Origin: a candidate division WS1 bacterium
GTDB lineage: Bacteria > Armatimonadota > Zipacnadia > Zipacnadales > UBA5352
DNA length: 41,299 nt
NCBI GenBank assembly: GCA_012522765.1
Contig: JAAYJW010000502.1
Coordinates: forward strand, 1 to 41,299
Reading direction: 5' to 3'
Shown here: in pieces, positions 9,071-11,470 of the stretch
Layout: each line of letters opens with the position of its first letter
Position numbering within the stretch: position 1 is the first letter of the stretch
Notes under the pieces: generated by a model
Database searches by the model: none
What the model saw: the letters and a program-made list of their open reading frames with translations, nothing else
What the model was told of the DNA's origin: nothing
Position numbers and translations under genes: made by a program

Positions 9071-9322
9071 TCAGTCGGCGGCCTCGACGGCATTCTCGGC
9101 CTTGTCCTTAGCGGCGGAGGGGCTGCTCTTGCCATTGCCGCGCCCGTAGTCGTTCACATGCCAGCCGCTGCCCTTGAAGATGATCGTGGGCGGGCTGAAG
9201 ATGCGATGCATCTTCCCGTCGCAGTCGTCGGCGCGACAGGTATTCGGACCCTTCTCGTCGAAACCGTGGCTGATCTCGAAGACCTTCCCGCACTTCTCGC
9301 AACGATAGTCGTAGATGGGCAT
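9071..9322 (-). CDS. FmdB-family small zinc-ribbon protein
   Basis: An 83-residue protein starting MPIYDYRCEKCG, the hallmark of the FmdB regulatory-protein family. Cys8, Cys11, Cys29 and Cys34 form a C-x2-C...C-x4-C zinc ribbon; the C-terminal 30 residues are polar and probably disordered. The start ATG lies 9 bases after GGGAGG. FmdB was named from a methylotroph formamidase locus; the function of most members is unknown, and a DNA- or RNA-binding role is only inferred. It has a strong own promoter (TTGACT-17-TATACT) and is divergent from nif3, with a CIRCE element behind the promoter. Confidence 0.88.
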   Translation of the reverse strand: MPIYDYRCEKCGKVFEISHGFDEKGPNTCRADDCDGKMHRIFSPPTIIFKGSGWHVNDYGRGNGKSSPSAAKDKAENAVEAAD

Positions 9323-9340: not shown

Positions 9341-9391
9341 TTGGCTGTCGGTAATCCTTTGAAGTATAAACGGCGAGGGATGCGAAGTCAA
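9341..9391. promoter_or_regulatory. Two divergent promoters with overlapping -10 boxes
   Basis: On the - strand, TTGACT (9386-9391) is 17 bases from TATACT (9363-9368), reading into the zinc-ribbon gene. On the + strand, TTGGCT (9341-9346) is 18 bases from TATAAA (9365-9370), reading into nif3. The two -10 boxes share bases 9365-9368, so the promoters should compete for polymerase. The - strand promoter is closer to consensus. Confidence 0.65.
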
Positions 9392-9408: not shown

Positions 9409-9435
9409 TTAGCACTCCGACAGGGTGAGTGCTAA
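9409..9435 (+). promoter_or_regulatory. CIRCE element (HrcA operator), perfect match
   Basis: TTAGCACTC (9409-9417), nine bases, then GAGTGCTAA (9427-9435): an exact match to the canonical CIRCE operator bound by the heat-shock repressor HrcA. On the + strand it falls about 30 bases after the predicted start of the nif3 transcript, the usual place for CIRCE; on the - strand it lies 17 bases upstream of the -35 box of the zinc-ribbon gene. No groES, groEL, dnaK or hrcA gene is in the window. Confidence 0.9.
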
Positions 9436-9501: not shown

Positions 9502-10314
9502 ATGCTGATCGCAGATGTAATGACGCAGATTGAGGCCGTGGCGCCCGTTGACACCGCGCAGGAGTGGGACAACGTGGGGCTGCAGGTGGGGGCGCCCGAT
9601 TGGCCGCTGATGGGTGTGCTCGTGTGCCTGGAGATCACCCCTGCGGTGGTGGACGAGGCCGATCGCCATGGCGCCAACATGATCGTCGCGCACCATCCGC
9701 TGATTTTCCGGCCGCTGACGGCAATCCGCACCGATCGCCCTCTCGGGGCGCTCATCGAGCGACTGCTGGCCGATCAGGTGGGGGTGTATGTCGCGCACAC
9801 CAACCTCGATGCCGCCGCCGGGATCGGCACTGCCGCTGCGCTCGCCGAGCTGCTGGGGGTGGAGAAATCCTCGCCACTTGTTGAGGCCGGCGAGGTGGGG
9901 CTGGGGCTGGTGGGGAACCTGCAGAGTGCCGCAACCGTTGCAGAGCTTGAGGCGCGCGTACGCGAGGTGCTTTCGCCCGCGCGGGTCACGATAGTGGGGG
10001 ATACCTCGCGCACCGTCGGCAGGCTCGCCCTGATGCCCGGCTCGGGCGGGGATGCGGTTGAGGCTGCGGTGAGATCGGGTGCCGACGCTTTGATCTGTGG
10101 CGATCTCAAGCACCACGACGCGCTCGATGCGCTCGCGCTGGGGCTGACGGTAATTGACGCGACACACTATGCCACCGAGCGCCCGGTGGTAGCGCGACTG
10201 GTGAGCCACCTCGTGGAGAAGTTGGGTGCGGACGTCCCGGTGCTGGCCTCGCGCGTGATAACTGATCCGTTTGCCGCTGACCAGGATTCTGCCAATCGGA
10301 GTGATGGCCAATGA
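9502..10314 (+). CDS. Nif3-like dinuclear metal centre protein (YqfO/YbgI family)
   Basis: A 270-residue Nif3-family protein. The N-terminal signature APVDTAQEWDNVGLQVG is typical, and the metal ligands are visible as HHP (His64, His65), the Asp of AHTNLDAA, and DATHYATE near the C-terminus. The family makes toroidal hexamers with two metal ions per subunit; proposed roles include GTP cyclohydrolase-type or metal-chaperone activity, none firmly general. The start is the ATG 5 bases after AGGAGG. The stop overlaps the next start (ATGA). Nif3 next to a C4 zinc-ribbon coiled-coil gene is a widespread bacterial pairing. Expression is probably controlled by the CIRCE element upstream. Confidence 0.92.
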   Translation: MLIADVMTQIEAVAPVDTAQEWDNVGLQVGAPDWPLMGVLVCLEITPAVVDEADRHGANMIVAHHPLIFRPLTAIRTDRPLGALIERLLADQVGVYVAHTNLDAAAGIGTAAALAELLGVEKSSPLVEAGEVGLGLVGNLQSAATVAELEARVREVLSPARVTIVGDTSRTVGRLALMPGSGGDAVEAAVRSGADALICGDLKHHDALDALALGLTVIDATHYATERPVVARLVSHLVEKLGADVPVLASRVITDPFAADQDSANRSDGQ

Positions 10315-11024
10315 CGCCCGAGGATTTCCAGCGCCTCTACGAGCTACAGGTTGTTGACACGGGAATAGACGAGCGCAACGCACTGATCTCAAAGGCCGAC
10401 GACGGGACCTCCGCAAAGGCGGCGCTTGAGGCAGCGGAGGCGCGGCTGGCGGAGTTGGAGGAGCAGCTTCATCAGAAGCAGGCCGAGCAGCAGACCCTCG
10501 AGCTTAACCTCGGCGTGATAGAGCAGGAGAAGCAGGAGAAGAGCGATCGGGCCTACGGTGGCACGGTATCAGACATCAAGGAACTCTCCGCGCTGGAGAA
10601 GAAGATCGCGGAGCTTGAGCGTAACGCGGGGCGCCATGAGGACATGGTCCTCGCCGTGCTCGATGAGGTAGACGATTTGACTGCTCAGGCGGATAAGCAG
10701 CGTGCGGTAGTGGCGGAGCTGCGCGGGCAGTTGGAGCGGATCGTTGCGCATTTCGAGCAGAGCACCGCGCAGGCTCGGGAGGAGATCGAGGCGCTTGAGG
10801 GGCGGCGTGAGGAGCTGGTGGCGGAGATCCCCGAGGCGCTGCTGAAGCAGTACGAACAGATTCGCCCACGCTGCGACGGACTCGCCGTGGCAGCGCTGGA
10901 TGGGTATAACTGCGCGGTCTGCCACGTAGCGATCCCCCGGGTACATCGCCCGATGGTGGTGCGCGGAACCGACATAGTCAAGTGCGAGAACTGCCGCCGC
11001 ATCCTCGTCATACCGGAGGGGTAG
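10311..11024 (+). CDS. C4-type zinc-ribbon coiled-coil protein (former DUF164)
   Basis: A 237-residue protein with a long antiparallel coiled coil (about residues 30-170, rich in Glu, Ala, Leu and Gln) and a C-terminal zinc ribbon with Cys201, Cys204, Cys225 and Cys228 (NCAVC...KCENC). This is the zf-RING_7/CT398 family; structural work on chlamydial and Helicobacter members suggests interaction with other proteins or nucleic acid, but no enzymatic role is known. It starts inside the nif3 stop (ATGA) and is followed 5 bases later by the FmdE-like gene, so the three are co-transcribed. Confidence 0.9.
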   Translation: MTPEDFQRLYELQVVDTGIDERNALISKADDGTSAKAALEAAEARLAELEEQLHQKQAEQQTLELNLGVIEQEKQEKSDRAYGGTVSDIKELSALEKKIAELERNAGRHEDMVLAVLDEVDDLTAQADKQRAVVAELRGQLERIVAHFEQSTAQAREEIEALEGRREELVAEIPEALLKQYEQIRPRCDGLAVAALDGYNCAVCHVAIPRVHRPMVVRGTDIVKCENCRRILVIPEG

Positions 11025-11029
11025 AGCAA

Positions 11030-11470
11030 GTGGCCCGACACCATCACCATCACCATCTTTCGCACGATGAACTCGTTGACCGCCTGAGAGCCTTCCACGG
11101 GCACCTCGGCCCGTTCGCGATCCTCGGATACCGTGCCGGGAGGCTTGCGGTGCGGGAACTGGACGCGCCGACGCACTTCGGGGTGGATGCCACCGTGCAC
11201 TGCCCGCCGCAGCCACCGCCGTCCTGCTTCGCCGATGGCGTGCAGTACAGCACGGGCTGCACTTTCGGCAAGCGCAATATTGAGGTTGTGCCATCGGACG
11301 AGGTGTCGCTCACGCTCGTGGTACGCGACAGCGGCGCAGCACTTACCATCGTGCCGCGCCGCGAGGTGATCGCCTGCTTCGGTCCGTGGATGGAGGAGGC
11401 GGATGATGAGACCGCCGCCCTGCGCGTACTCGACATGTCCGACGAGGAGCTCTTCGAGGAGCGGGCCTAA
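11030..11470 (+). CDS. FmdE-like protein with a natural N-terminal six-histidine run
   Basis: A 146-residue protein of the FmdE (formylmethanofuran dehydrogenase subunit E) domain family. The start is GTG, 9 bases after GGAGG. Residues 1-9 read MARHHHHHH, six histidines coded by alternating CAC and CAT. The FmdE signature FHGHLGPFAILGYRAG follows (His23, His25), and YSTGCTFGKRNIEV holds Cys77. The usual C-terminal zinc ribbon of longer FmdE proteins is missing. No other methanofuran pathway gene is near, so a metal-binding or molybdenum-related role outside methanogenesis is likelier. The stop overlaps the stop of phoU on the other strand. Confidence 0.85.
   Translation: MARHHHHHHLSHDELVDRLRAFHGHLGPFAILGYRAGRLAVRELDAPTHFGVDATVHCPPQPPPSCFADGVQYSTGCTFGKRNIEVVPSDEVSLTLVVRDSGAALTIVPRREVIACFGPWMEEADDETAALRVLDMSDEELFEERA

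Follow-up and report, generated by a model that had tools for sequence, protein, structure and literature searches.

HrcA is a repressor, and HrcA regulons are usually described as containing chaperone genes only. The window analysed here, a stretch of 41,299 nucleotides from a member of Ca. Zipacnadia (Armatimonadota), carries a copy of the HrcA operator CIRCE between a zinc-ribbon gene and an operon headed by nif3, which raised the question of whether this element is a working operator and which of the two divergent transcription units it serves. We consider it highly probable that the element is a working HrcA operator common to both units.

The CIRCE element and its genomic setting

The element at positions 9409-9435, to which no strand is assigned, reads TTAGCACTC-CGACAGGGT-GAGTGCTAA and matches the CIRCE form TTAGCACTC-N9-GAGTGCTAA with 0 mismatches, as the preliminary description of this DNA had stated. 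Allowing up to three mismatches, no second CIRCE was found in the window, and 100 dinucleotide shuffles of the window gave 0 matches. At the same tolerance, the whole 4.9 Mb genome (521 contigs, estimated completeness 97.7%) contained one other CIRCE, also perfect, which is located before groES-groEL (contig C376:2959-2985). The preliminary description had made its proposal dependent on the presence of hrcA, and the genome does encode this gene on contig C86 (PF01628, 130.7 bits; TIGR00331, 229 bits, above the NCBIfam equivalog cut-off of 197).

Two side observations concern the other candidate members of the regulon. No CIRCE was seen near hrcA (C86:1-5626), and the large open reading frame about 780 bp downstream of it resembles FtsZ at its start and does not resemble dnaK, so that autoregulation of hrcA through CIRCE seems absent. 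A second groEL (C401:10006-11499) had no CIRCE within 1.5 kb, which suggests that only one of the two chaperonins is under HrcA. With up to four mismatches allowed, the fetched flanks of hrcA and of this second groEL likewise gave no CIRCE.

The gene to the left of the element (9071..9322, minus strand) encodes an 83-aa zinc-ribbon protein of the fmdB/ruc family (PF09723, 40.9 bits; TIGR02605, 54.4 bits, cut-off 31.3). Its N-terminal zinc ribbon contains four cysteines at positions 8, 11, 29 and 34, the second pair thus forming a CX4C motif, and its C-terminal tail GRGNGKSSPSAAKDKAENAVEAAD is hydrophilic and variable as judged by eye; a PDB search with FmdB returned matches at chance level only. 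To the right, nif3/DUF34 (9502..10314, plus strand; 270 aa) starts 66 nt after CIRCE and matches PF01784 (246 bits) and TIGR00486, the Nif3-like dinuclear metal centre protein family (206 bits, cut-off 130.55). Its stop codon is overlapped by a gene for a COG1579/CT398-type protein with a coiled coil and a C4 zinc ribbon (10311..11024, plus strand; PF24481, 57.9 bits; PF02591, 27.2 bits, slightly below the cut-off of 29.1). The third gene of the operon is FmdE-like (10982..11470, plus strand; PF02663, 89.5 bits), and its real start is probably located after the first GTG; it occupies the same place in seven related genomes. The four gene assignments of the preliminary description were thereby upheld.

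Only one promoter passed the consensus scan (1 found versus 0.1 expected), namely that of fmdB, TTGACT-17-TATACT on the minus strand (9363..9391), whose −35 box begins 17 bp from CIRCE; a promoter of the zinc-ribbon gene close to the operator had indeed been proposed. The promoter proposed at the same time for nif3 fared less well: a candidate exists on the plus strand (TTGGCT-18-TATAAA, 9341..9370), but it is weak and failed the consensus scan. It shares the TATA of the fmdB −10 box, and this shared, symmetric TATA could serve nif3 as well.

Conservation of the element and its constant partner

Conservation in relatives had been named as a test of the element, and CIRCE was found in the same intergenic region, between fmdB and the divergent operon, in 33 of the 41 genomes of the order (our own tally across several locus sets); the other eight genomes have no CIRCE at fmdB. 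In the family, CIRCE stands shortly before nif3 in all eight members that have an orthologue of this gene. In the family alignment the loops and the greater part of the spacer vary whereas the CIRCE arms are kept, the one exception being a change of TTAGC to TTGGC in both copies of the locus in genome G008; the other invariant blocks are the −35 and −10 boxes of fmdB and part of the fmdB leader. As a side observation, G008 contains two diverged fmdB-CIRCE-nif3-COG1579 modules (contigs C27 and C5), each with its own CIRCE, one arm of which reads TTGGCACTC in both copies.

Throughout the order, about half of the loci have nif3 as the right-hand gene and the others COG1579 directly, the latter gene following nif3 or standing in its place. 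We considered nif3 as the key partner of the operator and rejected it, because in many genomes without nif3 at this locus CIRCE lies between divergently oriented fmdB and COG1579.

A survey of 81 Armatimonadota genomes yielded 148 CIRCE sites, of which 146 were classified: 102 belong to groE, 39 to fmdB, two to hsp20 and one, in genome G019, to nif3 alone, and two were left unassigned (one at a contig end, one with two mismatches). Outside the order, seven loci have CIRCE at fmdB without nif3; the element overlaps the fmdB −35 box in two of them, directly follows the −10 box in another, lies at the fmdB start codon in a fourth and stands ahead of fmdB in the remaining three. Genomes were also searched with a combined CIRCE-fmdB pattern, which was strict in demanding an exact right arm and a limited distance and passes over many loci already known from the order. 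The pattern was found in 16 of 291 Armatimonadota and in 2 of 400 Chloroflexota, the latter two having a perfect CIRCE ahead of fmdB and no nif3; the reversed-pattern control gave 0/291 and 0/400 genomes, and this strict pattern was absent from 35 further genomes, nearly all from other phyla. No CIRCE with up to three mismatches was present in the 78 nif3 loci retrieved outside two named Zipacnadia genomes. Given the site classification and the occurrence of CIRCE at fmdB without nif3 both outside the order and in Chloroflexota, gene neighbourhoods indicate that the constant target of CIRCE here is fmdB and not nif3. The emphasis that the preliminary description had placed on nif3 was therefore misplaced, as nif3 is missing from this position in many genomes.

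In the two Chloroflexota loci, the CIRCE loop at fmdB contains TTGACG or TTGACA, and the loci adjoin an apparent tRNA gene and a divergent open reading frame that resembles sucC by eye.

The presence of CIRCE also follows that of its putative repressor. Among the 81 Armatimonadota genomes, 63 had both hrcA and CIRCE, nine had neither, seven had hrcA only and two had CIRCE only (Fisher p = 2e-6, relatedness not being corrected for), and the two genomes with CIRCE but no hrcA are incomplete (69% and 88%).

Operator geometry and possible modes of control

Among 33 loci of the order, 28 have 14-17 bp between CIRCE and the −35 box of fmdB, and the five exceptions (4, 6, 6, 6 and 27 bp) are shifted by about one helical turn, a reading of the phase that rests on these five loci. 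A counterpart of the fmdB promoter was present in all 33 loci scored, with a mean score of 10.7 of 12 versus 6.7 in shuffles. Such nearly fixed spacing points to selection on CIRCE and the fmdB promoter as a pair.

The arrangement differs from that at groES-groEL in the same genomes, although the arms and the 9-base loop are alike. At groES the −35 box usually precedes CIRCE by 27-41 bp (82 of 102 loci with a scorable promoter), which places CIRCE at about the transcription start, whereas the fmdB promoter of the order comes only after CIRCE, at a distance of about 16 bp. By geometry, the CIRCE centre falls near −66 of fmdB, upstream of the promoter, so that simple steric repression of fmdB is not obvious. 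In other lineages, by contrast, the element lies over the fmdB promoter.

We suggest, as a reading that comes close to an even chance, that HrcA co-controls fmdB and nif3-COG1579-fmdE from one operator, reaching fmdB from an upstream position in helical phase. That CIRCE governs fmdB alone, with the nif3 operon an uninvolved neighbour whose start falls opposite by coincidence, is a tentative but serious alternative. It agrees with the finding that no partner other than fmdB is constant throughout the phylum and in Chloroflexota, and with the contrast between the nearly fixed spacing to the fmdB −35 box and the 14 to 236 nt that separate CIRCE from the right-hand start codon across loci of the order. 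In addition, promoter scores in the nif3, or right-hand, direction at the same loci were close to those of shuffles (7.5 versus 7.1). However, genome G019 keeps CIRCE 16 nt before nif3, near a contig end, and the 143 bp remaining upstream show neither fmdB nor its promoter; most nif3-bearing relatives have CIRCE 14-31 nt before the nif3 start codon, a position which transcription of nif3 must pass. We regard a response of nif3 itself to HrcA as likely.

The spacings (4-6, 14-17 and 27 bp) appear to be in helical phase, so HrcA bound upstream of the fmdB promoter might also work through contact with RNA polymerase and could even be an activator there. Measured from the expected start, the site centre would fall near −55, −66 or −77. 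We regard this mode of action as unlikely, as HrcA is known as a repressor, the site overlaps the fmdB promoter in other lineages, which fits repression, and only five loci are shifted, two of them paralogues in one genome. Control of the nif3 operon only, with fmdB as the bystander, is more doubtful still: a CIRCE in the nif3 leader would be in a normal place for a repressor and it does lie upstream of the fmdB promoter in the order, but about half of the order's loci have no nif3 there, and outside the order CIRCE occurs at fmdB without nif3. It is hardly credible that the element is a chance palindrome, or a hairpin in the RNA of the nif3 leader, with no link to HrcA, for although an inverted repeat could fold in RNA, the arms hold the groES CIRCE sequence beyond what mere pairing would require, the loops vary freely, CIRCE co-occurs with hrcA and the reversed pattern was found in no genome.

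Relation to ruc and the predicted stress response

The preliminary description had held that CIRCE is hardly known outside groESL, dnaK and hrcA operons, which overlooks ruc (rv0991c) of Mycobacterium tuberculosis, a gene directly repressed by HrcA (PMC7448276). Its product Ruc (Rv0991c) is a zinc-binding, redox-regulated chaperone that aids the Hsp70 system, and Ruc was found in 73% of 15 Armatimonadetes sampled (PMC7448276). Fragments of Ruc, derived from primer sequences given in PMC7448276 with X at missing residues, scored 55.5 bits against TIGR02605, compared with 54.4 bits for FmdB of the window, and the direct similarity of the two was modest (29%, E = 5e-9 in a tiny database). The profile matches place FmdB of the window in the same family as M. 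tuberculosis Ruc.

In both systems a TIGR02605 zinc ribbon is under an HrcA operator, and the second main target of HrcA is groE (PMC7448276; PMC8557902). They differ in that ruc forms an operon with rv0990c and is co-controlled by SigH, with overlapping sites, whereas fmdB of the window faces the nif3-COG1579-fmdE operon and has its operator upstream of its promoter; the second cysteine pair is CX2C in Ruc and CX4C in the window. As HrcA represses ruc in M. tuberculosis, the CIRCE before fmdB/ruc extends a known link. We found no earlier report of an HrcA site at fmdB/ruc in Armatimonadota, and no literature linking HrcA with Nif3, FmdB or a zinc ribbon under those names, or combining HrcA, CIRCE and Nif3. 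What appears to be new at the sequence level is the conservation of CIRCE-fmdB across the phylum, the sharing of the element with the divergent nif3-COG1579-fmdE operon and the unusual operator position. DUF34 shares operons most often with COG1579 (PMC8469502), and this DUF34/NIF3-COG1579 pair is present in the window as well; the DUF34 study does not mention HrcA or CIRCE (PMC8469502).

A model of the response can be outlined from these data. In unstressed cells, an HrcA dimer on CIRCE would hold down fmdB, and it would probably also repress the nif3-COG1579-fmdE operon, in whose 5′ leader the element would lie. GroE is known to keep other HrcA proteins active, and the HrcA dimer of this host would be kept active in the same way. 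Under heat or protein-folding stress HrcA activity would be lost, and both units would be induced along with groESL. Oxidation-dependent chaperone activity in the FmdB/Ruc family is documented for M. tuberculosis Ruc (PMC7448276); by analogy, oxidised FmdB would lose its zinc and become a holdase that passes clients to DnaK. The placement of these genes in the HrcA heat-shock regulon, as first proposed, is well supported for FmdB and likely for the nif3-COG1579-fmdE operon.

From the occurrence of CIRCE at fmdB/ruc across Armatimonadota and in two Chloroflexota, it seems that membership of the zinc-ribbon chaperone in the HrcA regulon is widespread and no peculiarity of mycobacteria, and the operator placement suggests that a little-studied set of proteins joins the heat-shock response. 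If co-control is true, NIF3/DUF34 and COG1579, two widespread families whose functions are unknown, would be heat-shock proteins in this order, and HrcA would be shown to act on fmdB from upstream in helical phase. The shared operator also offers a functional lead for both families, towards protein quality control or metal handling under heat or oxidative stress.

Apart from these loci, the two CIRCE sites before hsp20 genes (PF00011) were both found in one armatimonad family, and in each of them TTGACG, a possible −35 box, lies inside the CIRCE loop.
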